NCBI GenBank assembly: GCA_034440155.1
Contig: JAWXBN010000040.1
Location: 1 to 57,018 of the forward strand
DNA from: Verrucomicrobiota bacterium
GTDB taxonomy: Bacteria > Verrucomicrobiota > Verrucomicrobiia > JAWXBN01
DNA: 57,018 bases
Direction: 5' to 3'
Shown here: positions 29,275 to 47,474 of the stretch, piece after piece
Position numbering within the stretch: the stretch's first letter is position 1
Layout: each line of letters starts with the position of its first letter
The notes under the pieces: generated by a model
Told to the model about the DNA's origin: nothing
Database searches by the model: none
The model's input: the letters and a program-made list of their open reading frames with translations, nothing else
Translations under genes and position numbers: made by a program

Positions 29275-30387
29275 ATGACTTTTGATCAATTACAGGTAAC
29301 ATTCGCCCATCATTGGCTCATGAGCATGCGCGGAGGGGAAAAAACCCTTGAGGCGATGGCCGGGCTTTTCCCGGATGCTCCCATTCATGCCATCGCTGGG
29401 ATTTCAGCTAATCTCTCCGAGGGATTAAAGAAACATGCCATTGAATATTCCCTCATCCAGAAGCTGCCCGGTTCCCCCCGTTTTTTTAGAGCTTACCTCC
29501 CGTTTTTTCCTACAGCAATCGGACGGATGAGTTTGCCAGCCAGCGATTTGCTCATTTCCAGTGATGCCAATCTGATTAAAGGTGTCAAGAAACCTGCGGG
29601 CAGTTTCCACCTTTGTTACTGCTATAGTCCCCCCCGATATTTATGGATGATGCAGGATATTTATCTGGCTTCCCTGCCCATTATTTACCGTTCATTCGCG
29701 AAGAGGATTTTTTCCCGTCTTCGGGAGTATGATTTTAAGGCCGCCCAGACCCCTGATTCATTTGTCGCTATCTCAAATGCTGTATCCCGTCGCATTGAAG
29801 AGTATTATCAGAGGCCTACCGATGCGGTTATCCATCCACCGGTGGATATTCATGAGTGCCATGCTCATGCAAAACGGGAATCATTTTATCTGGTCGTCAG
29901 TGAGTTAACCCCTTATAAACGCGTCGATATCGCCGTCAAAGCCTGTTCGGAGCTCAAAAAATCATTAGTCGTGATTGGTCAAGGGGGAGAACTTAACCGT
30001 TTAAAGAAAATGGCCGGCCCACTCGTGACATTCATGGGCTGGCAAAAGAATCACACTGTCCGCGCGTTAATGGCTAGGGCCAAGGCCTTCTTATTCCCTG
30101 GTGAAGAAGATTTCGGAATAGCCCCGGTGGAAGCCATGGCCAGCGGTGCTCCCGTGATTGCTTTCGGGCGGGGGGGGATACTAGATACGGTTATAGACGG
30201 GAAAACCGGTATTTTGTTTTCCCACCAATCATCCGAATCAATGGTGAGTGCGATTGAAAAATTTGAGAAGATGGCTGGAGAATTCTCCCCCGAACTCCTT
30301 CGCAGCCACACGAAACAATTTGCGCGGTCGGAATTCCAAAAAAAGCTTCGCCATTTTATCAAGAACAGACTAAATCTTAGCGATTAA
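29275..30387 (+). CDS. Glycosyltransferase family 4 (WbaZ-like)
   Basis: The 370-residue protein has the GT-B fold of family 4 transferases. It starts VTFAHHWLMSMRGGEKTLEA, with the acceptor-side motif RGGEK seen in mannosyl and rhamnosyl transferases. The donor-binding segment is FPGEEDFGIAPVEAMASGAP, with the EX7E pair. It probably adds a sugar to a lipid-linked glycan on the cytoplasmic side. ATG 29275 is chosen instead of GTG 29260. It is the first gene of the glycan island, facing the opposite way to tyrS, and the next gene follows after 7 bases. Confidence 0.86.
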   Translation: MTFDQLQVTFAHHWLMSMRGGEKTLEAMAGLFPDAPIHAIAGISANLSEGLKKHAIEYSLIQKLPGSPRFFRAYLPFFPTAIGRMSLPASDLLISSDANLIKGVKKPAGSFHLCYCYSPPRYLWMMQDIYLASLPIIYRSFAKRIFSRLREYDFKAAQTPDSFVAISNAVSRRIEEYYQRPTDAVIHPPVDIHECHAHAKRESFYLVVSELTPYKRVDIAVKACSELKKSLVVIGQGGELNRLKKMAGPLVTFMGWQKNHTVRALMARAKAFLFPGEEDFGIAPVEAMASGAPVIAFGRGGILDTVIDGKTGILFSHQSSESMVSAIEKFEKMAGEFSPELLRSHTKQFARSEFQKKLRHFIKNRLNLSD

Positions 30388-30394
30388 CCGTCTT

Positions 30395-31789
30395 ATGAGA
30401 TTGTCCCAAAGAGAATTAGAGCCTGTGCTGATGCTTGTGGATACGGTGATGTGCCTTTTGGGTATCAGTCTCGCCTTTTTCCTCAGGGCATCTGACATCT
30501 CATTTACAGACCAGATTCCTGTCCAAGCCAACTACGCACTTTTATCCACAGTCATGACGGTCATTATTTTATTTTCATTAAAGATTTCTAGTCTCTACAG
30601 GCTTGAATTCATGTCCGGGAGGTCAATGTTACTACCGAAATTATTTATATCCACCTGTGCCGCATTGGCCGCCCTGTTTACACTGGCCTTTTTCATCCGG
30701 ACACAACAACAAGCCTATTCACGCGGGTTCCTCATTTTATCAGTATTCACTATCTCATTCATGCTCTTTGTAGGTCGTTACTCTATTTGCGCCATTCAAA
30801 GGAAATGGTCTCTTTTCAGTAAAAGAAAAACCCTGATTGTCGGATGGAGCCCGATGACTGACCGTTTAGCTGAATCCATGATCAATAGCCGCTTCCCCAT
30901 GATGGAACTTTCCGGCATCCTTACGCTCCAAGTCTGGCAAATCCCTGATGAATACCAGGAATATCATCTGGGCTCCTATGATGAATATCAAAAATCCCTT
31001 ATTATAAAACCAATCGACCAAGTCCTCATCCTTACGTCCCAAATCCCCCCCCAGCAATGTATTGAATTCTGTCGTTATGCTGACCAGAAACTCATTAAAA
31101 TCGGACTGATTCCCGACCCCCTCGAGATCATGCTCGGGCGGATGGAACTCTCCAATATCGAAGGAGTGCCTGTTCTTGCCGTTACGAACTTGCCCTTGGA
31201 TAAACTCTCAAACCGTATCATTAAACGGGTGGTCGATCTTATCGGTGGGATCACCGGACTCTTACTAAGTATTATTCCCTCCCTGATTATTTCCCTTTTT
31301 ATCAAAGCAGATTCCGCCGGACCGGTGATTTTTGGGCAGGAGCGGGTCGGTCGAGGTGGGAAAAAATTTATCATGTATAAATTTCGTTCCATGAGGTTCG
31401 GAGCTGAACAACAGGATTCAGAAGCTGGGTTGGGTGTCGACAATGACCCCCGCATCACAAAACTCGGTGATATGCTCAGGAAGTGGAACTTGGATGAATT
31501 GCCCCAATTCTGGAATGTGATTAAAGGGGAAATGAGCTTGGTCGGCCCTCGCCCCGAGCGGACCTATTTTGTCGATCTTTTCAAGGAAAAGGTGCCCCAT
31601 TACATGCCTCGTCATATTTATAAACCGGGTATAACCGGTCTAGCCCAAGTGCGCGGGCACCGCGGGAATACCTCTTTGGAAAAGAGGATCGAGGCGGATC
31701 TTGAGTACTTCGAAAATTGGTCGGTATGGTTGGATATAAAAATCATCCTTTTGACACTCACCCAATATTTTGGACATTATGAAAATTAA
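30395..31789 (+). CDS. Polyprenyl-phosphate sugar-1-phosphate transferase
   Basis: This 464-residue protein starts chains of exopolysaccharide or O-antigen by moving a sugar phosphate from a nucleotide sugar to undecaprenyl phosphate. It has about four N-terminal membrane helices, a CoA-binding-like middle domain (RKTLIVGWSPMTDRL), a fifth membrane helix and the C-terminal transferase domain with MYKFRSMR, ELPQFWNVIKG and SLVGPRPE, which hold the catalytic residues. That arrangement is that of PglC/WbaP-type proteins with a five-helix N-terminus. It overlaps the start of the next gene by 11 bases. It is likely the first committed step for the glycan built here. Confidence 0.92.
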   Translation: MRLSQRELEPVLMLVDTVMCLLGISLAFFLRASDISFTDQIPVQANYALLSTVMTVIILFSLKISSLYRLEFMSGRSMLLPKLFISTCAALAALFTLAFFIRTQQQAYSRGFLILSVFTISFMLFVGRYSICAIQRKWSLFSKRKTLIVGWSPMTDRLAESMINSRFPMMELSGILTLQVWQIPDEYQEYHLGSYDEYQKSLIIKPIDQVLILTSQIPPQQCIEFCRYADQKLIKIGLIPDPLEIMLGRMELSNIEGVPVLAVTNLPLDKLSNRIIKRVVDLIGGITGLLLSIIPSLIISLFIKADSAGPVIFGQERVGRGGKKFIMYKFRSMRFGAEQQDSEAGLGVDNDPRITKLGDMLRKWNLDELPQFWNVIKGEMSLVGPRPERTYFVDLFKEKVPHYMPRHIYKPGITGLAQVRGHRGNTSLEKRIEADLEYFENWSVWLDIKIILLTLTQYFGHYEN

Positions 31790-33800
31790 CGGGGATTTCA
31801 AAACGCTGCGACTCCCGGATCTTTTGTTTATTGTCCTCACAAGCATTCTATTTCTGGGATACTGGTTATCTTATCTATTTGCTGATTACTCCGATTTATA
31901 CGGGACAAATTATTACCCAGGACTCCTTAACTATGAATTTTTTGCCCAGTTATTCACTGTACTGCTAAGCCTCTTGGTTTTATTCCGTATTCTCCTTTCG
32001 AAGGAGCCTCGGCAACTTCCGAGTGGCACCAAGTTTTTTCTCCTGTTTTTATCCCTCTACATTGGATGGACCCTTCTGTCTACAGTATGGTCGATCAAGG
32101 CAGGCTTTGGGTGGAAGGAAATCAGGGTTTGGCTCGGATACTTGCCGCTGGCCTTTGCCTTGACGATTTGTTTGGGAGAATTTCAGCAAATCAAACGGGC
32201 CGTTATAACGCTTATCGCGGCACAGGTCGCCTGCATATCCATGGTCGTCATCTATGCCTATTATGCCAACGGCTGCTACGTCCCTTATATCACATTCTAC
32301 CTGAACCGTTCCCTCTTAGGAGAGATGATCATCGTGGCCATACCCCTTTTAGCCGCTTACGGGTTACTGCAGAATAATGGTTACCATGTATTTTTGAGGG
32401 TCTGTGCGATTCTCGGGTATATCTCGGTACTGATTATGGCCCAGAGAGCTCCATTATATGCATTATGGATCACACTCATAGTGTCCGTGATATTAGGTTA
32501 CATCAAATATCCAAACTACCGGAAAAAACTTATCCTCTTTTGGGGCATTCTCTGTTTAGCGACGGTCTTTTATCTTACCCCCAGCAAATTGACGGGAGGA
32601 CTCGAAAACTGGGACTCTTCTCGGAGAGCCTATAATATTGACCAGGCCAAAGACACATTTCATTACCGGATCAATGGTGTCCTCGTATCTTTTTTTCAAT
32701 GGAAAGATAATTGGCTCTTCGGCACAGGCCAAGGAACATATCCCTTGGTTTTTCCTGAATATTCAAAGGCGATTGTTGATGCAGGATTCCAGAAATATGC
32801 AAAAAAAACCGAAGATAAACAAATCTCACGCGCCCATTGTGAACCCGCACAAGTTGCGGGCGAATTAGGCATCATTGGCCTCACCCTCTGGGCCGTATTT
32901 TTTGTTTTTTTCCCCCTTCGCTTATCATACGCAGGATGGAAACAAAATAACATTGTGCTTTTGGTGGGGAGCTGGGGCTTACTTGCGATCACAATCAGCG
33001 GACTGGCCAGTTCTTTCAGTCCCCGGCTTGTGACGACCGGAATGTGGTATGTCATTGCGGGCGTATTAATATCGGCAGAATGGAAACTCCCCGCTTCACT
33101 CCTAAAAAACAGCCACTTAAAACTTTTATCGGTTCTGGCTGTAGGCGTGTCATGCCTCGTTCTGTTCTCTACCATGAAAACCCAGCGTCTTTTGAATTAT
33201 TTCTATCTCATTCAAATCAGCAAAAAGCTGCCACAAGCCACTTATTCTAAAGAACTTAATAAGTATAAACAACTCGTCACGGCAGACCCTTATTATCATT
33301 ATTTTTATTTTGCAATCGCCAATGCCATGGCCGAGCACGGTAATCTTAAACAGCCTGAATCTTCCCATTTCTGGCGTGAAGCCCAAGATTTAGGACTTTT
33401 CTCATCAAATCTCCTGGCGAGTGAAGCTTTCTCCCTTTATCTACAAGGCAAAAGGGATGATGCGCTGTCCCGCATCGATGAGGGACTCCATATTTTCCCA
33501 GACTCATGGTTTTTATTCACAATAAAAGCTGCCATTCAGGAAAACGAGTCATTACCGGCTAATTCCCAGACTTGGCAACAAGCTTTAAATCTTCATCCTG
33601 AAGCTACCCGTGTTACCCAAAAAGTATTTAAAGAAATGTTTACCGGAAAAAAACAAGGGATCACGTATCAGGAACTTTATGAAATCCCTACGGGATATTA
33701 CGGGCCCCTCTCAGTATATTATTTTAATACCCATCCCAAAAACAAAAAACTCCCCAGTTTATTTAATGACGGAACAAGCAATCCTTGGGAAAGTCCATGA
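31779..33800 (+). CDS. O-antigen ligase/polymerase-like protein with TPR-like tail
   Basis: The 673-residue protein has about ten membrane helices with the Wzy_C/WaaL pattern in the middle: GTGQGTYPLVFPEY and ISRAHCEPAQVAGELGIIGL, where the conserved histidine and glutamine or glutamate of the periplasmic loop sit. A soluble C-terminal part of about 200 residues holds TPR-like helical pairs. This architecture is used by O-antigen ligases (WaaL), Wzy polymerases and protein O-oligosaccharyltransferases (PglL). ATG 31779 is used; it overlaps the end of the previous gene. The four bases at its end (33797-33800) overlap a second gene of the same kind. Confidence 0.82.
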   Translation: MKINGDFKTLRLPDLLFIVLTSILFLGYWLSYLFADYSDLYGTNYYPGLLNYEFFAQLFTVLLSLLVLFRILLSKEPRQLPSGTKFFLLFLSLYIGWTLLSTVWSIKAGFGWKEIRVWLGYLPLAFALTICLGEFQQIKRAVITLIAAQVACISMVVIYAYYANGCYVPYITFYLNRSLLGEMIIVAIPLLAAYGLLQNNGYHVFLRVCAILGYISVLIMAQRAPLYALWITLIVSVILGYIKYPNYRKKLILFWGILCLATVFYLTPSKLTGGLENWDSSRRAYNIDQAKDTFHYRINGVLVSFFQWKDNWLFGTGQGTYPLVFPEYSKAIVDAGFQKYAKKTEDKQISRAHCEPAQVAGELGIIGLTLWAVFFVFFPLRLSYAGWKQNNIVLLVGSWGLLAITISGLASSFSPRLVTTGMWYVIAGVLISAEWKLPASLLKNSHLKLLSVLAVGVSCLVLFSTMKTQRLLNYFYLIQISKKLPQATYSKELNKYKQLVTADPYYHYFYFAIANAMAEHGNLKQPESSHFWREAQDLGLFSSNLLASEAFSLYLQGKRDDALSRIDEGLHIFPDSWFLFTIKAAIQENESLPANSQTWQQALNLHPEATRVTQKVFKEMFTGKKQGITYQELYEIPTGYYGPLSVYYFNTHPKNKKLPSLFNDGTSNPWESP

Positions 33801-35743
33801 ATCTAGCCCTGCCATACTCTGATAAAGTAATCCCTGCGGTACTTTGTTGTCTGGTCGTCGGGCTCTTTTGGTTTTCACCGCCTGATTTGGTCTGGAGGAT
33901 TGCTGACGTGGGTGAATCCCAAGTCATTCGTGAGACCATATTGGCCTTGGTCTTGGCCTCGTTATCCGTGTACATCCTCGCCATTAGGCAGGCACGGCGC
34001 AAATTGTTTGGAATATTTCAGCAACCCTCCTTCCGGAATGCGGTCATATTCGGCTTAGCCATCCTTATTTGGCAATGGGTGAGTCTGCTGGTGAATGGGC
34101 ACACGGTTGCAGGAACTTCTTATTGTATTCTTTGGTTAGGCTATCTATCCCTCTTTATTTTCACAAAACTTGCTTTCGATGGGAAAATCCAATATCAGAA
34201 AAATGTTCTTGTGATTATCTCGTTATCCACACTAGCGGCATCGATTTACCTGCTCTTAAAATCCATCGAAAATAATTTATACTGTCCAAACATTCTACTC
34301 AACACCGTACGCCTGAGTGCTGGTGAATACCTCGTGCCAGGATGGGCAATCATTACCGGGCTCTTCTTATATGCTGAGTCCACCCGCCAAAAAGCCCTGT
34401 GGGGGGGAGGTTTATTTTTTGCGACATTAGCGATCTTCCAAACATCCCACCGCTCCCCCATTTTAGGAATCGTATTTTCTCTGGCCTGTCTTCTTTTTCT
34501 TGGATACAGACAGCACCAACTCAAACAAAGATGGAAAGCTTGGACCATATTCTTTTTAATCATCATCTCTACAATCACCATACAGATGCTCTCCTATACT
34601 GCGCTAAAGGGGATGGATACTAATGTGACCATTCAAAAGCGCCTCATGAAAAACGAGGAGGGTTCGATCGGTTACCGTCTGTTTTTAATGCGTGTCTGTA
34701 TGAATATGTTTATGAATAATCCCATTGCTGGTGTGGGGACAGGAGCTTTTGGAAAAAATTATTTCCCTAACCAAGTGGCATTATCAGCTTCACCCGGTTA
34801 TTCCCAAATCGCTCCCACACTCTCAACTCTCGGCGCGGAGAGGGCTCATAATGAATTCTTTCAGATCCTGGCGGAAAATGGGGCCATTGGCCTGATTCTC
34901 TGCGGTTGTTTCATCGGGGTAGTTTTATTCTCTTCTCGCAAACTCGGAACCGGCCACTCGGGCCCCGTTTCCAATATGATCCTTTCCGCCCTCATTGGTT
35001 TTTTGGCTTCTAGTCTTACCAGTGGATTTTCTTGGCGCTGGGCATCAAATGGTTCTTTGTTCTTTTTGATTCTCGGCTTGTGGACTTGTCACACGAACAT
35101 AAAACGGGAAGCCCCTTCATCTTCCCTGCCAAAACTGATGATAACCTTTGGGGTATTTGTTTCTATCTTCTTAGTGATAGGAACTCTCTATCAAATCAAA
35201 AAAACAATCTCTCAACTTGATTATGCAAAGGGTTTTGTACTCTCGACCCATGATTCAAATATCCAAGCCATTGAATGCCTGAACAACTCTTTGAGTATCA
35301 ATCCTGAAAATTGGCGGGCCGCATTTTTACGGGGAAAATTGTTTCTTTCCCAAAATGAAAAACCAAAAGCATTGGAGTCATTCACCCTTGCCGCCCAAAA
35401 TAGAATTAATGGGGTAGATCACCTCGTGATTCTTGCCCGTCTCCATGAGTCCACTGACCAGCCCTCCGATAATCAAAAAATTAAAAGTCTTTATGGACAG
35501 GCCTTATCAGCGTATCCGCATTCACCTTTACTTAAGCTTTTTTATGCTGATTATCTAGTAAATAGAGGGGACCTCAAAAAAGCAAAAATTCTTGCTGAAC
35601 AAGCGAAAATTGAAGATCCTGAACTCTATAGTGCTGCCAAAAAGTACTTCACAGGACGAGCCGATGAAGGCCGTCAACTTTTAATACAATCAAATAAAAT
35701 CGAGATAATGAATACCTTTGAAACACTTTTTCTCTCTAAGTGA
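33797..35743 (+). CDS. Second O-antigen ligase/polymerase-like protein with TPR-like tail
   Basis: This 648-residue paralogue has the same layout as the gene before it: membrane helices, a central loop with GVGTGAFGKNYFPNQVALS and AERAHNEFFQILAENGAIGL, and a C-terminal TPR-like region (NSLSINPENWRAAFLRGKLF). The HNEFFQILAENG segment is a clear Wzy_C signature. The start at ATG 33797 overlaps the preceding stop as ATGA, so the two are translationally coupled. A polymerase plus a ligase, or two ligases for different acceptors, are both possible. A pseudopilin gene follows after 116 bases. Confidence 0.84.
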   Translation: MNLALPYSDKVIPAVLCCLVVGLFWFSPPDLVWRIADVGESQVIRETILALVLASLSVYILAIRQARRKLFGIFQQPSFRNAVIFGLAILIWQWVSLLVNGHTVAGTSYCILWLGYLSLFIFTKLAFDGKIQYQKNVLVIISLSTLAASIYLLLKSIENNLYCPNILLNTVRLSAGEYLVPGWAIITGLFLYAESTRQKALWGGGLFFATLAIFQTSHRSPILGIVFSLACLLFLGYRQHQLKQRWKAWTIFFLIIISTITIQMLSYTALKGMDTNVTIQKRLMKNEEGSIGYRLFLMRVCMNMFMNNPIAGVGTGAFGKNYFPNQVALSASPGYSQIAPTLSTLGAERAHNEFFQILAENGAIGLILCGCFIGVVLFSSRKLGTGHSGPVSNMILSALIGFLASSLTSGFSWRWASNGSLFFLILGLWTCHTNIKREAPSSSLPKLMITFGVFVSIFLVIGTLYQIKKTISQLDYAKGFVLSTHDSNIQAIECLNNSLSINPENWRAAFLRGKLFLSQNEKPKALESFTLAAQNRINGVDHLVILARLHESTDQPSDNQKIKSLYGQALSAYPHSPLLKLFYADYLVNRGDLKKAKILAEQAKIEDPELYSAAKKYFTGRADEGRQLLIQSNKIEIMNTFETLFLSK

Positions 35744-35767
35744 CCTGCTGTCAATGAGATATTTATG

Positions 35768-35796: not shown

Positions 35797-35859
35797 CTAA
35801 TAGTTATAGCTAATAATATAGCCATACATAAACATAAAAAAACAAACAGGACTAAACAT

Positions 35860-36258
35860 ATGAAGAACAAACAATCAGGGTTCACGCTCGTCGAAATCAT
35901 GATCGTGGTAGCAATCATCGCATTGCTCGCAGCGATCGCCGTGCCGAACTTCCTTCGCGCACGTCAACGTTCATTGGCCACATCCGTTAAAAATGATATC
36001 CGTATCATTGAATCGGCTGCAGACCAATATGCCATTGAAAGTGGTCTATCTGGTACTGCTAATATCTTATGGACAAGTATCACTGGTTACTTCAAAACAG
36101 GCAGCAAAATCGCTTCTGGGCAGTCTGCTATATCCGGAATGGATTTCTCCGCCCAATATTCATCGATTCCGGTTGGATCAAAACTCTCTGCTACAACAGC
36201 CATTAGAGCTGAATTCGCAGATACATCGATTATTCCTGTTTCTTTCTGGAATGATTAA
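35860..36258 (+). CDS. Type IV pilin-like / type II secretion pseudopilin
   Basis: The 132-residue protein has a short leader ending in QSG, with FTLVEIMIVVAIIALLAAIA next: the prepilin peptidase cuts after G and E5 of the mature form is present. After the helix comes VPNFLRARQRS, the pattern of pseudopilins common in PVC bacteria. The mature head is short, about 95 residues, and rich in Ser, Ala and Thr (SGLSGTANILWTSITGYF...), thus holding possible O-glycosylation sites. Small size suggests a major pseudopilin or surface fibre subunit. Assembly genes are not in the window. It has its own terminator, and sits directly after the two Wzy_C genes. Confidence 0.85.
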   Translation: MKNKQSGFTLVEIMIVVAIIALLAAIAVPNFLRARQRSLATSVKNDIRIIESAADQYAIESGLSGTANILWTSITGYFKTGSKIASGQSAISGMDFSAQYSSIPVGSKLSATTAIRAEFADTSIIPVSFWND

Positions 36259-36280
36259 TATAAATACACATTACTACAAA

Positions 36281-36308
36281 AAACCCCAGCAATTGCTGGG
36301 GTTTTTTT
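36281..36308 (+). terminator. Rho-independent terminator after the pilin gene
   Basis: AAACCCCAGC (36281-36290) pairs with GCTGGGGTTT around an AATT loop, followed by a T run. It ends 22 bases or so past the pilin stop. Confidence 0.92.
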
Positions 36309-36526
36309 ATGTTTATAACTCTCCGATAATTTCAAATAGAGGGGTTCATCTAGGCAGATCATTATACTTTCGGTAACTGAAAAATTATAAATTCGTGATT
36401 TCCTGAATCAAAATATGGCTTTAACATGTGTCCTTGCTGAAGATATGGAAATCTGGCATAATTGCACCTAGGATAGTAATAACTTTCCAATCATTTGAGC
36501 ACTTTGAAAAGATAATAAATAAATTC

Positions 36527-38041
36527 ATGAATCAGAATAAATTGATTGTTTTATCTATAGTTATTTTCACTGCGACCTTCATTCAATGGCTACCAACAAC
36601 AGGTTTTGGCTTTATCAATTTTGATGACCCAAGATTCATTGAAGAGAATCCCTTGATCTATTTGCACCCTCTAAAAACTTTTTATCATTCTATTACCACT
36701 GTCGTCATGTCTAATTGGATACCATTGACGTTTGCGAGTTTTTCCTTGGACTATCATCTATACGGACTTAATGCGCCAGGATTCCATCTTACTAATATTA
36801 TTTTTCATGCATGTAATGCAGTTCTGGTTTTTTATATATTTTTCATTCTTTTGGAAAAGTTTTATCCTCAAAGTAATAAGTCCTATCTTAATGCAATATT
36901 TGCAGCCATATCATCATTGTTATGGGCGAACCATCCATTTAGGGTAGAAGCCGTAGCATGGGTTTCAGCCCGTAAAGATGTTCTATTTATGTTTTTTTGT
37001 CTGTTCAGCATTATTTTTTATCTTAAGTACATATCGAATCTTCTTAAATCAAAAACTGATTCTTTTCTACTAAATCGCTTTTACTTATTATCCATCTTAA
37101 TGATGATATTATCATTATTATCAAAAGGAATGGCCGTCACACTTCCCTTTGTATTTCTTATTGTCGATTATCTATATAAAAGGAACGATTATAAGAGAGC
37201 CATAATGGAAAAGATTCCCTTCTTTATATTATCTGTCTTATTTTCATACATTCAAATATTAACAAGACCAACCACTTTACCTGATACTAACGAATTAAGT
37301 TTATCCATTCGAATTATCAATGCTTGCTCTGGACTTGGTTTTTACCTTGAAAAGACCTTATTTCCTCTCAACTTGGTTCCGGTTTACTATTATGAAGGTC
37401 ATAAACCTGATTATTTTATCTATATTTTTATTTCCGGTCTGGCATCCGTGTTACTTTTAACAATACTGTTTCTGAAAGGAAACCGTTTTGTTAAGGCATC
37501 TGTTATATTTTATATTATCACTTTATTGCCAGTAATCGGAATTATGCAAACTTGGATTCAAGAATATGCTGATCGTTTTTCTTATTTTCCGACTTTACCG
37601 TTATATCTTGGTTTTGGAATCGCAGGTATTAAACTCGTCCATTACATATCCTCTCCTCGGATGAAAGTGAGAACTGTAACGAACAATCATTTCATACTCT
37701 GTGCTAAATATAAAATTTTATTATTATCATCCGTCATTTTTTTTATCTATACATTTCTTTGTTCTAAACAAATTATGTTATGGGAAACCCCCTATACTTT
37801 GTGGAATCATCAGATAAACGTTCGTCCACACCCACTGCCCTATCTCGTACTCGGAGATTATTCAATGACGCAAAAGAATCCACAGAAAGCCTTAGATTAT
37901 TATACTCGAGGATACCAAAGTTACCCCCAATCAACATTGTTTTTGCCACGCATCTCTATCGTAAAAAAACTTTTAAACAATCATCAAGATAATGTGGTAA
38001 AAGAGATTGATAGTAAATTACTACAGCCCCATAATAATTAA
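36527..38041 (+). CDS. TMTC-like (DUF1736) multi-pass membrane protein, copy 1
   Basis: The 504-residue protein has about ten membrane helices and the pattern of the bacterial DUF1736/TMTC-like family: FGFINFDDPRFIEENP with the acidic pair, NWIPLTFASFSLDYHLYGLN, HLTNIIFHACNAVLVF and WANHPFRVEAVAWVSARKDVLF. Eukaryotic TMTC proteins are O-mannosyltransferases of the GT-C type; the bacterial ones are mostly untested. The C-terminal end has a short TPR-like stretch (PQKALDYYTRGYQSYPQS). ATG 36527 is used; the reading frame extends back to 36428 but this part is not like the family. The gene is AT-rich. A closely similar gene lies at 42295. Confidence 0.78.
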   Translation: MNQNKLIVLSIVIFTATFIQWLPTTGFGFINFDDPRFIEENPLIYLHPLKTFYHSITTVVMSNWIPLTFASFSLDYHLYGLNAPGFHLTNIIFHACNAVLVFYIFFILLEKFYPQSNKSYLNAIFAAISSLLWANHPFRVEAVAWVSARKDVLFMFFCLFSIIFYLKYISNLLKSKTDSFLLNRFYLLSILMMILSLLSKGMAVTLPFVFLIVDYLYKRNDYKRAIMEKIPFFILSVLFSYIQILTRPTTLPDTNELSLSIRIINACSGLGFYLEKTLFPLNLVPVYYYEGHKPDYFIYIFISGLASVLLLTILFLKGNRFVKASVIFYIITLLPVIGIMQTWIQEYADRFSYFPTLPLYLGFGIAGIKLVHYISSPRMKVRTVTNNHFILCAKYKILLLSSVIFFIYTFLCSKQIMLWETPYTLWNHQINVRPHPLPYLVLGDYSMTQKNPQKALDYYTRGYQSYPQSTLFLPRISIVKKLLNNHQDNVVKEIDSKLLQPHNN

Positions 38042-38049
38042 TCACTACT

Positions 38050-38829: not shown

Positions 38830-38830
38830 T

Positions 38831-40252
38831 ATGCACGTGATGAATCGAAATATTAAATTATCTGCGTATCTTAACAAGATTTCGAAGCACTATAACCAGT
38901 TATCATCCCCTCCTCCATATTTAAGTTATTATTACAGACAATTGATTGCTCAATACTATAAACGACTTATTCATCATGAGCATGACATACTTGAAATTGG
39001 GTCAGGACAAGGTTTACTTTTAAAGTTACTGTCCTACAAAAGAATGAGTGGAGTGGACATCTCAGAAACACAAGTTGATATTGCCAAAAAGAAAATACCT
39101 GATGGGCGCTTTTATTGTCAGGCGGCAGAATATTTAAATTTAGATGGTAAATTTGATGTAATACTCATTTCTGATACATTAAATTATGTAGGTGATATAC
39201 AGTTGTTATTACAATCACTTCACAGTATGAGTCATTCAAATACCAGATTAATGATCAATTCTGTTAACACACTTTGGTATCCGCTCATCAATCTAGCTAA
39301 TCATTTAGGTTTAAAAAATCCAGAACCACCCGGCAACTGGTTAAGTGTGAATGATGTGCTAAATTTACTCAATCTCTCTGACTGGGAAAATGTTACCATC
39401 GAGAACCGGATACTCATGCCATTGCCTGTTATTGGCCCTATACTCAACCGGTGGATCGCACCTCTACTCCAGCATTTCTGTTTGACGACATTCATCGTAT
39501 GTCGCCCGCGTATTCCGTTTTACACCCGTAAAGAGTATTCTGTGACTGTAATTGTACCTGCCCGAAATGAAGCGGGGAATATCTGTTCCGCCGTTGAACG
39601 AATCCCTGTCATGGGCACTCGATCCGAAGTGATTTTTATCGAAGGCAACTCCACAGACAATACTTGGGAAGAAATTCAAAAGAATCTAGATAAAAGGAAT
39701 GATTTAACAGTATCGTCCATGAAACAGACGGGCAAGGGAAAAGCTAATGCCGTGCGTGAGGCAATTGCCAAGGCTACGGGGGATGTCATTATGATCCTGG
39801 ATGCTGATTTGACTGTGGCTCCAGAAGACCTCCCGAAGTTTTACGAACTCTTGGCGACTGGAAAAGCTGAATTTGCCAACGGGGTACGCCTTGTTTATCC
39901 GATGGACAACCACGCCATGCGGTTCCTGAATATGTGTGCAAATAAATTTTTCAGTATTGGATTCAGTTGGATTCTGGGTCAACCCGTTAAAGACACATTA
40001 TGTGGAACAAAAGTTTTTTTCAGGGAGTCCTATTTAGACTTTGCCAAAGATGAGGCAGACCTCAGACTGAAAGATCCCTTTGGTGATTTTGAGTTCCTGT
40101 ACTTTGCACGGCAGAAAAACTTAAAAATCTTGGATATTCCCATCCGTTACCATGACAGGGTTTATGGGCAAACCAATATCAACCGCTGGAGGCATGGCTG
40201 GATGCTCCTCAAAATGCTTGTATACGGAGCACTCCGTTTTAAATTCATTTAA
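38831..40252 (+). CDS. Fusion of a methyltransferase and a DPM1-like glycosyltransferase
   Basis: This 473-residue protein joins two modules. Residues 1-230 are a SAM-methyltransferase (DILEIGSGQGLLLKLL; ISDTLNYVGD). Residues from about 237 are a GT2 domain, with TVIVPARNEAGNICSAVERI, then GNSTDNTWEEI, GKGKANAVREAIAKATGD, and the acidic metal site LDADLTV near 323. The PVKDTLCGTKVFFRESYL part resembles polyprenyl-phosphate mannose/glucose synthases, but the usual C-terminal membrane helices are missing. The N-terminal part is AT-rich and the GT part less so, with the change near 39.5 kb. The two domains may couple methylation with sugar transfer. No start closer than MNRN at 38840 would lose a domain. 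Confidence 0.85.
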   Translation: MHVMNRNIKLSAYLNKISKHYNQLSSPPPYLSYYYRQLIAQYYKRLIHHEHDILEIGSGQGLLLKLLSYKRMSGVDISETQVDIAKKKIPDGRFYCQAAEYLNLDGKFDVILISDTLNYVGDIQLLLQSLHSMSHSNTRLMINSVNTLWYPLINLANHLGLKNPEPPGNWLSVNDVLNLLNLSDWENVTIENRILMPLPVIGPILNRWIAPLLQHFCLTTFIVCRPRIPFYTRKEYSVTVIVPARNEAGNICSAVERIPVMGTRSEVIFIEGNSTDNTWEEIQKNLDKRNDLTVSSMKQTGKGKANAVREAIAKATGDVIMILDADLTVAPEDLPKFYELLATGKAEFANGVRLVYPMDNHAMRFLNMCANKFFSIGFSWILGQPVKDTLCGTKVFFRESYLDFAKDEADLRLKDPFGDFEFLYFARQKNLKILDIPIRYHDRVYGQTNINRWRHGWMLLKMLVYGALRFKFI

Positions 40253-40257
40253 TCATT

Positions 40258-40914
40258 ATGTCCCCAACAACCACGTTAGTTATAAATGAAATCTATCACA
40301 GTATCCAAGGCGAAAGCACTTGGGCGGGACTGCCCTGTGTCTTTGTCCGATTGACCGCATGCAATTTGCGTTGCAGTTACTGTGACACATCCTATGCCTT
40401 TTATGAGGGGAAAAAAACCGGTTTACCAGAGGTTCAGGAAAAGATTCTATCATTTAATTGTTCACTTGTGGAAGTCACTGGTGGAGAACCCCTTTTACAA
40501 AAAAACGTCCTTGAATTAATGGGAAATCTCTGTGAAGCGGGAAAAACTGTCCTGATAGAAACAAGTGGTTCGATTGATATTTCGCCGATCGACCCCCGTG
40601 TTCATATTATTATGGATCTTAAATGCCCCTCAAGCGGAGAATCCGCAAAGAATCTTTACGCCAATATTGCTTTTCTCGCCAAAAAAGACGAGTTGAAGTT
40701 TGTTATCGGTTCTCGGGAGGACTATGAATGGGCGAGGGAACAGATTGATTTCTGGAAACTACCGGACAAGGTAGGGACTATATTATTTTCGCCCATTTTC
40801 GGTAAAATTGATCCGAAAGAGATTGTTGAGTGGATTCTTGCAGACGACTTGCCTGTGCGTTTTCAACTCCAGCTTCACAAATTCATTTGGCCCCCTAATC
40901 AAAAAGGAGTTTGA
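40258..40914 (+). CDS. queE: 7-carboxy-7-deazaguanine synthase
   Basis: QueE is a radical SAM enzyme that turns 6-carboxytetrahydropterin into 7-carboxy-7-deazaguanine on the route to queuosine. The 218-residue protein has the GE-rich start NEIYHSIQGEST (10-21), the cluster motif C35, C39, C42 (CNLRCSYC), the TGGEPLLQ segment and the end LQLHKFIWPPNQKGV. It follows the fusion gene by five bases and precedes the aminotransferase by nine. Other queuosine genes are not in the window. A GCAATTTGC copy overlaps the codons of the first cluster cysteine and is the only full copy in this 20-kb island. Confidence 0.93.
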   Translation: MSPTTTLVINEIYHSIQGESTWAGLPCVFVRLTACNLRCSYCDTSYAFYEGKKTGLPEVQEKILSFNCSLVEVTGGEPLLQKNVLELMGNLCEAGKTVLIETSGSIDISPIDPRVHIIMDLKCPSSGESAKNLYANIAFLAKKDELKFVIGSREDYEWAREQIDFWKLPDKVGTILFSPIFGKIDPKEIVEWILADDLPVRFQLQLHKFIWPPNQKGV

Positions 40915-40923
40915 CCAGAAGCC

Positions 40924-42285
40924 ATGCTCCCAAAAATCAAAACATCCATACCGGGACCCCTCTCAAAAAAACTTGCACTCAAGTTAAGAAAATATGAGTC
41001 GCGTAATATTACATTTGTCAGTAAGGGTTTCCCTGTCTTCTGGAGCAAAGCTAAAAATGCAAATATCTGGGATGTTGACGGGAACCGCTATGTTGATTTC
41101 ACATCTGCATTTGGAGTGGCGACCCTTGGACACACAAACCCCCAAATAACTGGCGACCTGCGACTCCAAAGCAGGGACTTGGTCCATGCGATGGGGGATG
41201 TCCATCCCTCTGAATTAAAAGTGACACTCTGTCAAAAACTCTCTGAAATCACTTTTGAAAAATGGACTCGCGGGTCTAACTCGAAGATTCATGGAAAAAC
41301 CATTCTTTGTAATTCCGGTTTCGAGGCGGTAGAAGCTGCTTTAAAAACAGCTCATCTATTGACCGGGAAAAAACGTGTTCTGGCTTTTTCCGGTAGTTAT
41401 CACGGTTTAGGTTTTGGGGCCTTGGATGTGACAGGCTGGCCAGAATTCCGCAGTCCCTTCAAAAAGATTATAGCAGATTTTGCAGATTTCCTGCCTTATC
41501 CACAAGGACACCATTGCTCCATTGGAAAAAAGCCAACTTACTCGACTAATGATTTTATGAATGAATTTTTCAAAAAGATTGAAAGATTATTAAAAAAATC
41601 GCTCACAGGCGCAATTATTGTTGAGCCGATCCAAGGGAGGGGGGGCGAGGTCATTCCTCCCGTATGGTTTTTACCCCTGCTCCGGACGATGGCGGATAAA
41701 TATCAAATACCCTTGATTTTTGATGAGATTTACACTGGTTTCAACCGCACGGGATCGTTTTTTGCTTGTGAGGATTGTGATGGCCAAACAGTCGTTCCTG
41801 ATATGATTTGCCTGGGCAAATCCCTTACAGGTGGTTTGCCATTATCAGCATGTGTGGGTAAGGCGCCTCTAATGGATCAGGCGTGGCCGGAATCGACCGG
41901 CGAAGCACTTCATACCAGCACTTTTTTAGGCAATCCCATTGCCTGTGCCATGGCATTAAAAAGCATTACGCTCCATCGTGACCCGGTTATCCTGAAACAA
42001 ATTGCCCATACGGCGGAGCTCCTCAGGGATTCCATGACAAAAATTAATGAACTATCTTTTACAGGCGATGTCAGGGGAAAAGGCTTAATGTGGGGAATCG
42101 AGATTGTTAATGAGAAGGGGACTCCTGCCCCCTCCAAAGCTGTGGAGATTATGATGGAGGGATTACAAAAGGGTTATATCCTCCTAAATGGCGGCTTGAA
42201 ACATAATGTGATTAGCCTGAGCCCTCCCTATAACATTCATCCCCAGGCATTAACCGGATTTTCAGAGTTTCTCAAAGGAATCTAA
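40924..42285 (+). CDS. Class III PLP aminotransferase
   Basis: The 453-residue protein is a fold-type I, class III aminotransferase of the GabT/ArgD/glutamate-semialdehyde group. It has VDGNRYVDFTSAFGVATLGH, the loop SGFEAVEAALKTAHLLTGK, the SYHGLGFGALDVTG segment, the aspartate DEIYTGFNRTG and the PLP lysine K299 in CLGKSLTGGLPLSA. The substrate is unknown. In this setting it could make an amino sugar or amino acid substituent of the glycan, or work on a queuosine-side or unrelated amine. It is close to queE (nine bases apart) but the pairing need not be functional. Confidence 0.85.
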   Translation: MLPKIKTSIPGPLSKKLALKLRKYESRNITFVSKGFPVFWSKAKNANIWDVDGNRYVDFTSAFGVATLGHTNPQITGDLRLQSRDLVHAMGDVHPSELKVTLCQKLSEITFEKWTRGSNSKIHGKTILCNSGFEAVEAALKTAHLLTGKKRVLAFSGSYHGLGFGALDVTGWPEFRSPFKKIIADFADFLPYPQGHHCSIGKKPTYSTNDFMNEFFKKIERLLKKSLTGAIIVEPIQGRGGEVIPPVWFLPLLRTMADKYQIPLIFDEIYTGFNRTGSFFACEDCDGQTVVPDMICLGKSLTGGLPLSACVGKAPLMDQAWPESTGEALHTSTFLGNPIACAMALKSITLHRDPVILKQIAHTAELLRDSMTKINELSFTGDVRGKGLMWGIEIVNEKGTPAPSKAVEIMMEGLQKGYILLNGGLKHNVISLSPPYNIHPQALTGFSEFLKGI

Positions 42286-42294
42286 ATCACACAG

Positions 42295-43917
42295 ATGCCA
42301 TCAAAAAATAGGATTTTAAGGCTGCCCTGTATCGGATTGTCCGTGATCATGCTCATCTGTCTGGGCTCGATATATGCACAAACCATTTTTTTTGATTTTG
42401 TTAATTTGGACGATCTTCCATTAATTCTGGAAAATCCACATCTAAAAGAACTTAGCTGGGAAAATATAAAATGGTATTTTACAGGATCCCTTTATGGAAA
42501 CTGGATCCCCCTGACAAATCTCTCATTTGCTATTCTTTACCAGCTCTTTAAATTTAATCCCCTTCCCTACCATCTACTCAATACCCTCCTCCATGTGTGT
42601 AATACCTTCATTGTCTGGCGTCTCATTTACCTTTTATTTGAAATATCTATTCCCCGTATTAACCACACAAAAATAATTATCATCGCGTCATGGGCAGGTG
42701 CCTTGTTCTGGGGAATCCACCCACTCAGGGTGGAATCTGTCGCCTGGGTCATCGAGTTAAAAGATGTCCTCTTTACTTTTTTCTACCTTCTGTCCATACA
42801 CTCTTACTTATTATACCTCCATCACCTAAAACTACATGGTGCCCCAAGGAATTATTATGCGGACAGGCATTATCTCTTTTGTTTCGCATTCTTCATTCTG
42901 AGTGGACTCTCAAAACCCATGGCTATCACACTGCCTGTCTGCCTATTATTACTTGATTGTGCCATGGCACGTCGTGATTGGATTCTTATCGTCCGCGAAA
43001 AGATTCCCCTGTTTTTTTTCTCACTATTCATCTGTCTCATGACATTGGCTGCTACAGCAGAAATGAGGCCGGATTTTAATGATGTTACTCTTTTTGACCG
43101 TCTCATTACGGGGTTCTACGGACTCGGATTTTATTTCGAAAAAACTCTTTTCCCCGTTAAGTTAGCAGTCATCTATCATTACGGCATGGCAGACCCTACT
43201 GTTCGCGAACTCGTTGTAATCAGTGGAGTAGCCTCAGGACTCCTGTTTTTTTTAGTGCTCAAACTGGCCAATCGGACATCCCGGTTAGCACTGGCATTTT
43301 ATGTCATTACTCTCTCCCCTGTACTTGGATTTTTCCAAATCGGATCCCAAGAGGTAGCCGACCGTTTTTCTTATTTGCCATCGGTCGTATTTTCCTTAGC
43401 CATCGGGTACTTTTTTATTCGTGCATTTGATTCAGAATTTCTCGCCACTCGCAAGAGGTTTGCCTCCGTCCTACTCTTATCTTCAGGACTTTGCATCACG
43501 GTCCTTCTGTGCACATTGTCACATGCCCAAGCCCATATCTGGAGAAACTCTTTTTCTCTGTGGACACACCAATTATCAATCCGGCCAGATGCAAAAGCAT
43601 TATTCTCTCTAACTAAATTCTTTTACAATAAACATGATTACCACAGGGCATCAATTTATTCCATGGAGGGAACACGCCTTTTTCCTGAGAATGAAGATTT
43701 CCTGATTTATTCGGCCATATGTCATTTCATATTAGGAGCTTATGACCAGGCTTACGTCTACAGCCAAAAGTCTCTCGATCTAAATCCCCATTCTCTTGAA
43801 GCACTGAGAATCAAATATGTCCTTGAGAAAAACTCAGAAGTAAAAGCCTCTCTTACCAGAAAGATTTTATACTTGGAAAGTTTCTATCGCAGTAAGCAGC
43901 CTAAATCCTTTAAATGA
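42295..43917 (+). CDS. TMTC-like (DUF1736) multi-pass membrane protein, copy 2
   Basis: The 540-residue protein is a paralogue of the gene at 36527. It shares FFDFVNLDDLPLILENPHL with the acidic pair, GNWIPLTNLSFAILYQLFKF, LLNTLLHVCNTFIVW and WGIHPLRVESVAWVIELKDVLF. About ten membrane helices are seen. The C-terminal part again looks TPR-like (YDQAYVYSQKSLDLNPHSLE). It starts nine bases after the aminotransferase gene. As with the other copy, a GT-C type activity is inferred from its family, and no enzymatic test is known to me for bacterial members. GC content here is a little higher than in copy 1. Confidence 0.8.
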   Translation: MPSKNRILRLPCIGLSVIMLICLGSIYAQTIFFDFVNLDDLPLILENPHLKELSWENIKWYFTGSLYGNWIPLTNLSFAILYQLFKFNPLPYHLLNTLLHVCNTFIVWRLIYLLFEISIPRINHTKIIIIASWAGALFWGIHPLRVESVAWVIELKDVLFTFFYLLSIHSYLLYLHHLKLHGAPRNYYADRHYLFCFAFFILSGLSKPMAITLPVCLLLLDCAMARRDWILIVREKIPLFFFSLFICLMTLAATAEMRPDFNDVTLFDRLITGFYGLGFYFEKTLFPVKLAVIYHYGMADPTVRELVVISGVASGLLFFLVLKLANRTSRLALAFYVITLSPVLGFFQIGSQEVADRFSYLPSVVFSLAIGYFFIRAFDSEFLATRKRFASVLLLSSGLCITVLLCTLSHAQAHIWRNSFSLWTHQLSIRPDAKALFSLTKFFYNKHDYHRASIYSMEGTRLFPENEDFLIYSAICHFILGAYDQAYVYSQKSLDLNPHSLEALRIKYVLEKNSEVKASLTRKILYLESFYRSKQPKSFK

Positions 43918-44027
43918 TCAAGTTAATCCACCATTTAACAATGAAAGGCAAGCATCATAAAGATGATTCAACTCACGGTTATACTTCGCACTTGAATCCA
44001 CCATTCTAAATACTGTATATTCTATTA

Positions 44028-44984
44028 ATGTTAAAGAAGGAGCTCCCATTACTCTCTATTGTTATTCCCCTATACAATGAGCAAGATGTATTACCCCTCC
44101 TAATTCAAAAGATCTATGATTTCAAATCACATTTTGATTCACCTCTTGAATTCATCATCGTCAATGATGGCAGCAAAGATAATACATCAACTTTACTTGA
44201 CCAGCTGTCAGAGAATCTGCCGACATTAAAAGTATTACACCTTAGCCGTAATTTTGGACATCAGATTGCCCTTACCGCTGGTATTGATTATTCCACTGGT
44301 GAATATGTAGTTGTTATGGATGGAGATTTGCAAGACCCGTTTGACATGATATTACCTATGATGCAAAAAGCCCAAGAAGAGGGCTATGATATTGTACTCG
44401 CTAGAAGACGATTAAGAGATGGCGAGACACTCTTCAAGCTTTTTACTGCAAAAATATTTTATTGGATAATGAAAAAAGTTATACAGGCAGAACTCCCATC
44501 AAATGTTGGGGATTTTAGATTAATGAATCGCAAATCAATTGATGCCTTGAAGGAAATGAAAGAACTCCACAGGTTTTTAAGGGGCATGGTTGTTTGGATT
44601 GGATTTAAGCAGGCAATTCTTGATTTCGACCGACCTAGCCGCCCCATAGGTAAAAGCAAATATCCATTAATTAAAATGTTGTCCTTTTCCTGGAATGCAA
44701 TTACCTCGTTTTCTACATTTCCTCTCTATATCGTGATGAGCTCAGGATGTTTGGTAGTAATACTAGGTATCAGTTATTCTCTTTTGACTCTTTATAAGTC
44801 TCTCATACTGAAAATTACAGTACCAGGATGGGCTTCACTTGTGATTTTGCTTTGCATATTCTCAGGGGTGATTTTAGTGTCTCTCGGAATCGTAGGACTC
44901 TATGTGGGAAAGATTTTTGAACAAGTAAAAGGACGTCCACTTTATTTGCTTTCAGACACAAGGAATATAACTAGTGAAAAATAA
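44028..44984 (+). CDS. GT2 family polyprenyl-phosphate sugar synthase (DPM1/GtrB-like)
   Basis: The 318-residue protein starts SIVIPLYNEQDVLPLL (10-25), has the metal-binding MDGDLQDP, the GIDYSTGEYVVVMDGDLQ segment, and two C-terminal membrane helices (about residues 230-260 and 268-295). This is the layout of GtrB or ArnC proteins, which make polyprenyl-phosphate-glucose, mannose or aminoarabinose as donors for membrane GT-C transferases. The island has several such GT-C candidates. It overlaps the start of the next gene by 11 bases (44974-44984). The region is AT-rich. Confidence 0.88.
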   Translation: MLKKELPLLSIVIPLYNEQDVLPLLIQKIYDFKSHFDSPLEFIIVNDGSKDNTSTLLDQLSENLPTLKVLHLSRNFGHQIALTAGIDYSTGEYVVVMDGDLQDPFDMILPMMQKAQEEGYDIVLARRRLRDGETLFKLFTAKIFYWIMKKVIQAELPSNVGDFRLMNRKSIDALKEMKELHRFLRGMVVWIGFKQAILDFDRPSRPIGKSKYPLIKMLSFSWNAITSFSTFPLYIVMSSGCLVVILGISYSLLTLYKSLILKITVPGWASLVILLCIFSGVILVSLGIVGLYVGKIFEQVKGRPLYLLSDTRNITSEK

Positions 44985-45783
44985 ATACGGCATTCAAAAA
45001 ATTAGTTCAGAAGCTGATTTCCACGATCGTTGGGCTTCAGAAATTAATGAGGAGGAAATTGATGTAATTTCATCCTTCACAGGATCTACAAGTCCCGAAA
45101 ACAGATATCTAATTTCATTTTTGGGAAATCTTCAAGGCAAACGTATTTTAGAATTAGGTTGTGGTGCTGGAGAAAACAGCATCTATTTTGCACTTCAGGG
45201 AGCAAATGTTACTGCCACGGACATTTCTGAAGGAATGTTAGAAAAAACAAATCGTTTAGCTAAAAAATATGGCGTTAAAATCGATACCCACAAGATGGAT
45301 GCAATGAATATCACATTTGAGAATGATGCTTTCGATGTAGTCTATGCAGCCAATACTTTACACCATGTAGATACACCTACTGCGATCCATGAAATTCACC
45401 GCGTACTCAAACCTGGAGGATTTATGTGCACTTGGGACCCATTGTGCCATAATCCAATCATTAATATATACAGGAGAATGGCTACAAAAGTACGTACAAT
45501 TGATGAACATCCGCTTTCCATCAATATCATTGATTCTATCCGGGCAAAGTTCAGCCATCTAGATTATGAAACTTTTTGGTTTTTTAGTTTGTGGATTTTT
45601 TTACGTTTCTACCTTATTGAAAAAATCCATCCAAACGATCAAAGATATTGGAAGAAAATCGTATTGGAAGAAAAACGTTTACGTCCACTCTATTATAAAC
45701 TTGAGCGATTTGATCTTCTCGTTAAAAAAATACCATTTGTTAAACGTTTCGGTTGGAACATAGCATTGGCTGCAAGAAAGTAG
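44974..45783 (+). CDS. SAM-dependent methyltransferase (second)
   Basis: The 269-residue protein starts with GTG at 44974, inside the end of the GT2 gene. It carries the class I motif GKRILELGCGAGENSIYFALQG (about 55-75), ATDISEGMLE and YAANTLHHVDTPTAIHEIHRVLKPGG, typical of the Methyltransf_11/25 fold. A stretch of about 100 residues after this has aromatic-rich helices (FWFFSLWIFLRFYL) that may be a membrane-facing segment. The acceptor is unknown. A lipid-linked or glycan substrate fits the neighbourhood. Confidence 0.83.
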   Translation: MKNKYGIQKISSEADFHDRWASEINEEEIDVISSFTGSTSPENRYLISFLGNLQGKRILELGCGAGENSIYFALQGANVTATDISEGMLEKTNRLAKKYGVKIDTHKMDAMNITFENDAFDVVYAANTLHHVDTPTAIHEIHRVLKPGGFMCTWDPLCHNPIINIYRRMATKVRTIDEHPLSINIIDSIRAKFSHLDYETFWFFSLWIFLRFYLIEKIHPNDQRYWKKIVLEEKRLRPLYYKLERFDLLVKKIPFVKRFGWNIALAARK

Positions 45784-45856
45784 TGACAATATTTCGCGTG
45801 TAGTACATTTTGCGAAAGGTATGCGTAGAAAATAGACATATTCACAATAATACCCA

Positions 45857-47452
45857 CTATTTGAAGGTCGCATCTCTAGTGTTTGTTATAGGTTCCCAAA
45901 TGGTAATACTAATTTCACCAGAACCAAATAAACTTCTATTTCTCCAGTATGAATAATGGAAAGGAATAAAGTATGTCCGATTTGAACGATAATTCGCCAT
46001 TAATGCATCCTGAATATTTTTCGGCATTAAGGACGGGTAACTACTTTCAACAAAGGCTTTTTCATAGACCTTGTTTTTTATATTTTCTATAATCCCGTGT
46101 TCAAATTTTGAAACAATAAGCCGTTCATTAATAAATTGGTTCTCACTGGAATTGATCAATGGTGAATAAAAATATTCGGTAGACCCAGCATTATAAATGT
46201 CAGCTTGTGTAGTTAATGAATAATAAGCCAAACTAGAGCACAAAAGTGATTTATCATTAATTAAACTTCTGATTTCTTCATCATACTGTTGAGAATATAC
46301 GGGCACATTTGGCATATCCATTTGCAGAAAAACTATATAAAAAGTGAGAATAAGTTTTCCAAGAAGACGATTATATTTATCAGAAAAGTAAATACTCGTG
46401 ACTATCAACACGGGAGAACAAAGCTGAATAAAGTATATCAGATAATTGCCAGTATTTCTACTGAGCCAAATACTCGCACAACAGAGAAAAATAAAAATGA
46501 TAATAATGTAATATAAACTATTATAAATTCCGTAACTTTTGGAATAGAATTTACTTTTCCAGTGGCGTAATAAAATCCTTCCACTGATACCTCTGTTCAC
46601 TTTTACATAAATTAAATATAATCCACATATTAAAATCACTATTAATCCCCAATGAATAACAACATAATCTCTTATTTGTGGAATTAAATGGGCTGTCGAA
46701 GCCTCATTTGTATTTAAGTGTATTTGTATGGTCGAGTAGAAATATGCCGGCCATTGACTTTGAAAAAATATGCCGGTTAATATCAATAATAATATACTAC
46801 AGATCAAATATATTATCGCATTAATTCTCTGTCCTACACACAAAAGACCCATTGTCACAGCTGGCATGAAAAGACCGAAATAGGGTTTTGTATAGAATGC
46901 TGCTACTCCTAAAATAACGCTCAAAAGGAGTACTTTTATTCGGTTTTGATGAAATCCTGCTAAATAGATGCTCGACCAAAAAAAGAGAGCGCCTAGATAA
47001 TCAGGCCTTGCCGCATTGGAATATTGTCCGACTAAAATCGCATAAAGAATACAACTTGCTGCTATCGTATAAACCAGAGACACATGCAGCCTTCTGATCA
47101 CAGTCCAGGTAAGGAGAGTAAGGAGCAAGATTGATATAGCAGTGACTGTTCTATGAACGAGAAAAGTATTCCCAAAAATAAGGGCAAAACATGCAGAAAC
47201 CAGATTATAACCCAACCCATAGACATTTAAATATAAAGGTAAAAACTCTTTTTGATATGGACTATAACCATCCAATATGATCCCTGTCACCAAAGGCATT
47301 AGCCCTTCCCTAATCTCAAGGGGCAATGGTGTCGTAATCAATTTATATTGAAGAATTAATGAAGAGAAGGCCAATAAAACTGCTGCACTTATTAATCCAA
47401 AGTCTATAATACGAGAGTATTTTGATAGTATTCCTACAATATTTTTATGCAT
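45857..47452 (-). CDS. Multi-pass membrane glycosyltransferase-like protein (GT-C type)
   Basis: The 531-residue protein, starting at ATG 47452 (MHKNIVGILSK), has about ten membrane helices in the first 380 residues and a soluble end of about 150 residues. The first periplasmic loop holds LEIREGLMPLVTGIILDG and YSPYQKEFLPLYLNVYG, with an acidic residue and a Tyr-Gly pattern like that of GT39/GT83 proteins and many uncharacterised GT-C proteins. I infer transfer from a lipid-phosphate sugar, without proof. It runs against the other island genes and is separated from the Dabb gene by 22 bases. It is AT-rich. The longer frame to 47518 is unlikely. Confidence 0.68.
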   Translation of the reverse strand: MHKNIVGILSKYSRIIDFGLISAAVLLAFSSLILQYKLITTPLPLEIREGLMPLVTGIILDGYSPYQKEFLPLYLNVYGLGYNLVSACFALIFGNTFLVHRTVTAISILLLTLLTWTVIRRLHVSLVYTIAASCILYAILVGQYSNAARPDYLGALFFWSSIYLAGFHQNRIKVLLLSVILGVAAFYTKPYFGLFMPAVTMGLLCVGQRINAIIYLICSILLLILTGIFFQSQWPAYFYSTIQIHLNTNEASTAHLIPQIRDYVVIHWGLIVILICGLYLIYVKVNRGISGRILLRHWKSKFYSKSYGIYNSLYYIIIIFIFLCCASIWLSRNTGNYLIYFIQLCSPVLIVTSIYFSDKYNRLLGKLILTFYIVFLQMDMPNVPVYSQQYDEEIRSLINDKSLLCSSLAYYSLTTQADIYNAGSTEYFYSPLINSSENQFINERLIVSKFEHGIIENIKNKVYEKAFVESSYPSLMPKNIQDALMANYRSNRTYFIPFHYSYWRNRSLFGSGEISITIWEPITNTRDATFK

Positions 47453-47474
47453 ATTTTTACCGCAATAAGCAGCC

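Follow-up and report, generated by a model that had tools for sequence, protein, structure and literature searches.

A candidate pilin O-glycosylation module beside a Wzy-type polysaccharide locus in a Verrucomicrobiota bacterium

Organization of the locus

The window, a stretch of 57,018 nucleotides, corresponds to contig C40 in the assembly of an uncultured Verrucomicrobiota bacterium (genome G000), which totals 2.76 Mb and is 97% complete. The kin of this genome in our genome set belong at most to the same class, and it has no close relative there. Two gene blocks lie between TyrRS (28052-29266, minus strand) and a bactofilin gene pair. The second is our main subject: it combines a short type IV pilin gene with genes for membrane glycosyltransferases of the GT-C class that resemble human TMTC enzymes (TMTC-like), for GT2 glycosyltransferases and for methyltransferases, and we consider it a candidate pilin O-glycosylation module.

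The genes of the second block, all on the plus strand, begin with the short type IV pilin or pseudopilin, a prepilin and the candidate acceptor (35860-36258; N_methyl, PF07963, E 5e-10), followed by an intrinsic terminator with a 13-pair stem and a T run (36278-36307, plus strand; -20.2 kcal/mol, z -4.9). Downstream are TMTC-like protein 1 (36527-38041), the methyltransferase MT1 (38050-38829; PF08241, E 2e-5), a methyltransferase-GT2 fusion (MT-GT2; 38831-40252; PF00535, E 2e-23, and PF13489, E 7e-12), a QueE-type radical SAM enzyme (40258-40914; TIGR04349, E 2e-85), a class III aminotransferase (40924-42285; PF00202, E 6e-87) and TMTC-like protein 2, which has a C-terminal TPR region (42295-43917). 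Intergenic gaps across 36527-43917 are only about 1-10 bases. A GtrB-like GT2 enzyme (44028-44984) and the methyltransferase MT3 (44974-45783; PF13649, E 7e-26) complete the block. A reading of the window from its letters alone (the sequence-only reading) had listed the pseudopilin and "two or three methyltransferases"; the pseudopilin is present and the methyltransferase domains number three, at 38050-38829, at the N-terminus of 38831-40252 and at 44974-45783. It had missed QueE and the aminotransferase, which sit within the TMTC-like operon (40258-42285) with gaps of 5-10 bases.

The first block (29260-35743, plus strand) encodes a GT4 glycosyltransferase (29260-30387; PF00534, E 1.9e-27), a WcaJ-type initiating polyprenyl sugar-phosphate transferase (30395-31789; PF02397, E 8e-65; TIGR03025, E 5e-114) and two Wzy_C proteins (31770-33800; PF04932, E 3e-12; and 33785-35743; PF04932, E 3e-19), the second with a C-terminal TPR region (TPR_19). 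These domain matches confirm the initiating transferase, the GT4 enzyme and the two Wzy_C proteins of the sequence-only reading. The block shares the initiating enzyme, GT4 and Wzy_C genes with Wzx/Wzy polysaccharide loci, whereas a flippase, Wza and Wzc were not identified among the genes examined. The Wzy_C family includes protein O-glycosylases of the PglL type, as the sequence-only reading noted, but the window proteins showed no PglL-type domain: Pfam matched only Wzy_C (and TPR), and NCBIfam gave no PglL model. The genes of 36527-38829 and 44028-47518 have a GC content of 0.33-0.37, against 0.43-0.51 around them, which suggests recent acquisition.

TMTC-like proteins as predicted GT-C enzymes

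The TMTC-like proteins 36527 and 42295 are homologous, 35% identical over the aligned part, and are the sole two copies in the genome. The open reading frame of the first opens at 36428, and the ATG at 36527 fits the family. Both had been called TMTC-like from sequence, and this description survives in a narrower form. TMTC_DUF1736 (PF08409), which human TMTCs match at E < 1e-30 (PMC7801869), has no match in the window genome at E 0.1; it does match above cut-off in two other genomes of the class. We therefore do not regard the window proteins as TMTC proper and retain the term TMTC-like.

Since a PDB profile search with the family alignment gave only TPR-type proteins among the matches listed, fold comparison was used instead. 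The AlphaFold2 model of 42295 has a predicted local distance difference test score (pLDDT) of 90.1 and a predicted template modeling score (pTM) of 0.90, and a Foldseek comparison with the PDB returned ArnT (5f15) as the best match (E 9e-4, probability 1.00); Pmt4 was among the other matches listed, and the C-terminus matched TPR proteins. This fold match, together with recognition of 9 of 50 TMTC-like relatives by Pfam PMT_2 and the motifs described below, identifies 36527 and 42295 as GT-C enzymes by predicted fold, taken from the 42295 model, and by motif.

An alignment of 50 sequences contains 14 invariant columns, and on this evidence the family is not a product of chance. The DD, WxP, H, H, HPxxxE, RKD, SKP, P and ADRxxY positions are invariant or nearly so in alignments of 29 and 50 relatives, and they correspond to motifs M1, M3, part of M4 and M7 of the human TMTCs (PMC7801869). 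The two aspartates of the DD pair in the first outer loop (D39 in 49/50 relatives, D40 in 48/50) are kept in both window proteins. Motif M3 (RxD) reads RKD in 36527 and LKD in 42295; the lysine of M4, KE(T/Q)xxT, is kept and its glutamate replaced by P or G; and M7 (ERxxY) is DRxxY in both. Compared with human TMTC1-4 O-mannosyltransferases (PMC7801869), the window proteins share the GT-C membrane part, the C-terminal TPR region, the loop 1 DD, RxD (36527 only), the M4 lysine and (D/E)RxxY, but do not keep SHKSYRP or the M4 glutamate and have no TMTC_DUF1736 match.

Bacterial TMTC-like proteins occur in many phyla, with at least 592 places in one scan. Copy number is high in some genomes, with 25, 19 and 18 matches in G020, G014 and G004, and the genes can form tandem arrays, as in a Nitrospirae locus with seven (L128). 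Literature searches of open-licence papers found no substrate assignment for bacterial TMTC-like proteins and no paper that links them with pilins.

Candidate donor enzymes, methyltransferases and candidate acceptor

The sequence-only reading had described two GT2 modules as DPM1-like. For the C-terminal GT2 half of 38831, which follows the N-terminal methyltransferase, this agrees with a PDB sequence search in which the best solved match is DPMS (5mlz; E 2e-12 over 121 residues). The second module, 44028, is instead a GtrB/ArnC/PgfS-like polyprenyl-phosphate sugar synthase and not specifically DPM1-like: it matches sll0501 (GtrB) at E 2.8e-81 over residues 9-311 and ArnC at 1e-37, and DPMS only weakly (2.5e-11). 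Its NF047588 match (E 9e-76) is below the model cut-off; on the PgfS model it scores 255 bits against a cut-off of 500. Judged by these similarities, 44028 and the GT2 half of 38831 are of kinds that would make polyprenyl-phosphate sugars. The earlier proposal that such enzymes feed the GT-C proteins gains plausibility from this and from the predicted GT-C fold of 42295 with its donor and catalytic motifs.

The pilin has 132 amino acids (aa), with 25% Ser/Thr after the helix, and is the best N_methyl match in its genome, which also encodes PilB/PilT-type ATPases. The same genome encodes, at L095:1-2184 on contig C52, a protein of 727 aa or more with a domain close to its C-terminus that shares 40% identity with window pilin residues 27-109; this domain lacks the pilin N-terminal helix.

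Recurrent association of pilin, GT-C and MT-GT2 genes

The main new evidence is the conserved gene linkage of pilin, GT-C and MT-GT2. The fusion occurs in 50 of 388 genomes of the phylum, nearly always in single copy and mostly at 36-53% identity. Relatives of the window pilin were then located in the same genomes; across the analyses, pilin genes were identified by motif and by one query. Of 55 pilin clusters (34 genomes), eight have the fusion no more than 5 kb away, where 0.17 would be expected (P 1e-11). Kinship among the genomes reduces the independence of these counts, but the cases come from more than one branch of the fusion tree and from several families. By family there are three besides the window's own, against 0.17 expected (P 7e-4).

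Other partners recur as well. Every open reading frame was read in 51 fusion loci. MT1-type methyltransferases are found within 3 kb of the fusion in 18 of them, and MT1 relatives directly adjoin MT-GT2. A polytopic protein of 450-950 aa lies within 2.5 kb of the fusion in 41/51 loci, against a background of 34%. All 10 pilin-linked fusion loci carry at least one PMT_2-type GT-C protein of a single family, A3, most members of which have a DE pair in an early loop; 13/17 match PMT_2, and the family has no sequence match in the PDB. In six loci (L204, L226, L239, L242, L243 and L246), one or often two A3 genes, whose products are PMT_2-type proteins of about 600 aa, stand between the pilin gene and MT-GT2. 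The order in the window is pilin, TMTC-like GT-C, methyltransferase and MT-GT2, and the GT-C partner of the fusion is likewise TMTC-like, instead of A3, in L231-L234, L150, L183 and L146. Profile-profile comparison of the two GT-C families gave a probability of only 9.7%, and they are therefore handled as separate families of the GT-C/PMT_2 class. On the fusion tree, where the window stands alone on a long branch, the pilin+A3 label and the TMTC label each need three changes, so the donor gene appears to have stayed constant while its GT-C partners were swapped.

TMTC-like genes are also linked to pilins where the fusion is not considered. At class level, a TMTC-like gene is found no more than 5 kb from 5 of the 45 pilin clusters, where 0.81 would be expected (P 0.001). 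Among 80 loci from many phyla, picked by TMTC sequence alone, major-type pilin genes crowd the first kilobase. This stretch makes up 17% of the flank but holds 6/10 of the genes (P 0.0025); counted by locus, the figure is 5/9 (P 0.009). One motif hit inside a TMTC open reading frame, the two non-pilin-like hits in L163 and one in L161 were excluded from these counts by visual inspection. When every motif hit is kept and the boundary is moved to 2 kb, these data reach only P 0.04. Individual loci illustrate the arrangement, with two pilins 110-700 bases upstream of the TMTC-like gene in L135, one 54 bases upstream and a GT2 gene downstream in L178, and one 160 bases downstream in L176. The idea that bacterial TMTC-like genes always stand beside pilins was rejected, as most do not.

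Interpretation and alternatives

We favor the reading that 35860-45783 is a pilin O-glycosylation module beside a probably separate Wzy-type polysaccharide locus (29260-35743), and give it about an even chance of being correct. Its computed basis is the GT-C fold of 42295, the GT-C/TMTC motifs, the GT2 families and the gene linkage described above; from these we infer a lipid donor, a methylated sugar, transfer to Ser/Thr and the pilin as acceptor. In such a module, the GT2 half of 38831 and the GtrB-like 44028 would charge polyprenyl phosphate with sugar taken from a nucleotide sugar, on the membrane's inner face, and the methyltransferases (38050, the N-terminal half of 38831 and 44974) would methylate the lipid-linked sugar. 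A putative flippase would then turn the lipid-linked sugar over, and the TMTC-like proteins 36527 and 42295 would pass the sugar from its lipid carrier to Ser/Thr residues of an exported protein, for which pilin 35860 is the likeliest candidate. The nearby pilin had already been named as a possible substrate, and linkage in other genomes now adds evidence for a role that would still be that of a candidate. The single combined island proposed earlier fares less well: because the GT4-WcaJ-Wzy-Wzy block is not seen in related pilin/GT-C loci, which is a weak sequence test, two neighboring systems are a better reading.

Several observations weigh against a pilin module. The strong terminator at 36278-36307 parts the pilin gene from the GT-C operon, and QueE and the aminotransferase share that operon without an evident role. 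The best GtrA flippase match (PF04138) in the whole genome reaches 14.7 bits against a cut-off of 26.1, so the flipping step is without a candidate. At the position where 49/50 relatives hold the arginine of motif M3, 42295 has leucine (ELKD for ERKD), and its sugar preference or activity may differ accordingly. Around most MT-GT2 genes, a 10 kb radius contains no pilin, and among glycan genes the pilin linkage was counted for the TMTC-like and MT-GT2 genes. Most TMTC-like genes likewise have no pilin at this distance, and the pilin context can therefore be only one of the family's uses.

The main rival assigns the GT-C and GT2 proteins to the polysaccharide of the neighboring WcaJ/Wzy block: as a Gtr-like three-component system, they would attach a (methylated) side sugar to exopolysaccharide or O-antigen on the outer side of the inner membrane. 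Such systems are established (PMC11127046), the window shares with them a GtrB-like synthase adjoining GT-C genes, and WcaJ and two Wzy_C genes lie directly upstream. We nevertheless hold this to be unlikely: a Gtr system also calls for GtrA, absent above cut-off from this genome, and relatives of the window Wzy/WcaJ genes are rare in related loci whereas the pilin is the linked gene that recurs, although fast divergence of Wzy sequences makes the latter a weak test. Somewhat less probable again is that the GT-C enzymes act broadly and O-glycosylate many exported proteins, with the pilin at most one substrate among several and its position of minor importance. The 18-25 TMTC-like copies of some genomes, and the distance of most copies from any pilin, would fit this, but pilin enrichment near TMTC-like and MT-GT2 genes exceeds expectation and the window genome has two copies only. 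Least probable, and in our view a poor explanation, is an accidental arrangement in which horizontally acquired low-GC cell-surface genes came to lie beside a pilin gene without joint function. The GC content of 0.33-0.36 in TMTC-like gene 1, MT1, MT3 and 45857, against 0.43-0.51 in most neighbors, and the interruption of the run by QueE and the aminotransferase are in line with it; the recurrence of pilin, GT-C, MT1 and MT-GT2 together in several families and genera, including unrelated lineages, is not.

Comparison with known systems and implications

The favored pilin module recalls two described systems. In Pseudomonas aeruginosa, TfpW is described as a pilin arabinosyltransferase of the GT-C class, and TfpW/TfpO, like the window, tie a membrane glycosyltransferase to a particular type IV pilin (PMC11841053). 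The window likewise has GT-C gene 36527 beside pilin gene 35860, an arrangement recurrent in other genomes. The likeness drawn here is one of description and gene position. As a difference, the window GT-C is TMTC-like, ends in a TPR region and comes with the MT-GT2 fusion. The Pgf system of Streptococcus mutans comprises a GT2 enzyme, PgfS, and PMT_2-type membrane proteins (PgfM1) encoded beside the surface protein that they modify (PMC5856776). The window also places GT2 and GT-C membrane proteins beside a candidate substrate gene, but its surface protein is a pilin, methyltransferases are present and 44028 falls below the PgfS model cut-off.

More speculatively, the module may be one instance of a system widespread among bacteria, whose GT-C enzymes, TMTC-like or PMT_2-type, are interchangeable, dedicated to type IV pilins and fed by an MT-GT2 enzyme making a methylated polyprenyl-phosphate sugar; this broader proposal is tentative and on balance improbable. 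If true, it would provide a protein substrate for bacterial TMTC-like proteins, extend TfpW-type glycosylation of pilins to Verrucomicrobiota and further phyla, and offer a bacterial point of comparison for human TMTC enzymes. The recurring arrangement of pilin, GT-C, methyltransferase and MT-GT2 names a candidate substrate, a candidate donor enzyme and a genetic test.

Neighboring genes

The polytopic membrane protein downstream of the module (45857-47518, minus strand) had also been taken as GT-C-like. Its PMT_2 match (E 1.2e-4, 22.8 bits) is below the cut-off of 26.1, no PDB sequence matches it, and its one weak relative in the class is itself without a Pfam match. Structure prediction, suggested together with the sequence-only reading, gave a GT-C fold for 42295, with ArnT best, and an unusable single-sequence model for 45857 (pLDDT 42); 45857 may or may not belong to this class. 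Beyond it, the bactofilin gene pair (47818-49054, minus strand) adjoins the island, and one of the two bactofilins has a zinc-ribbon-like N-terminus.

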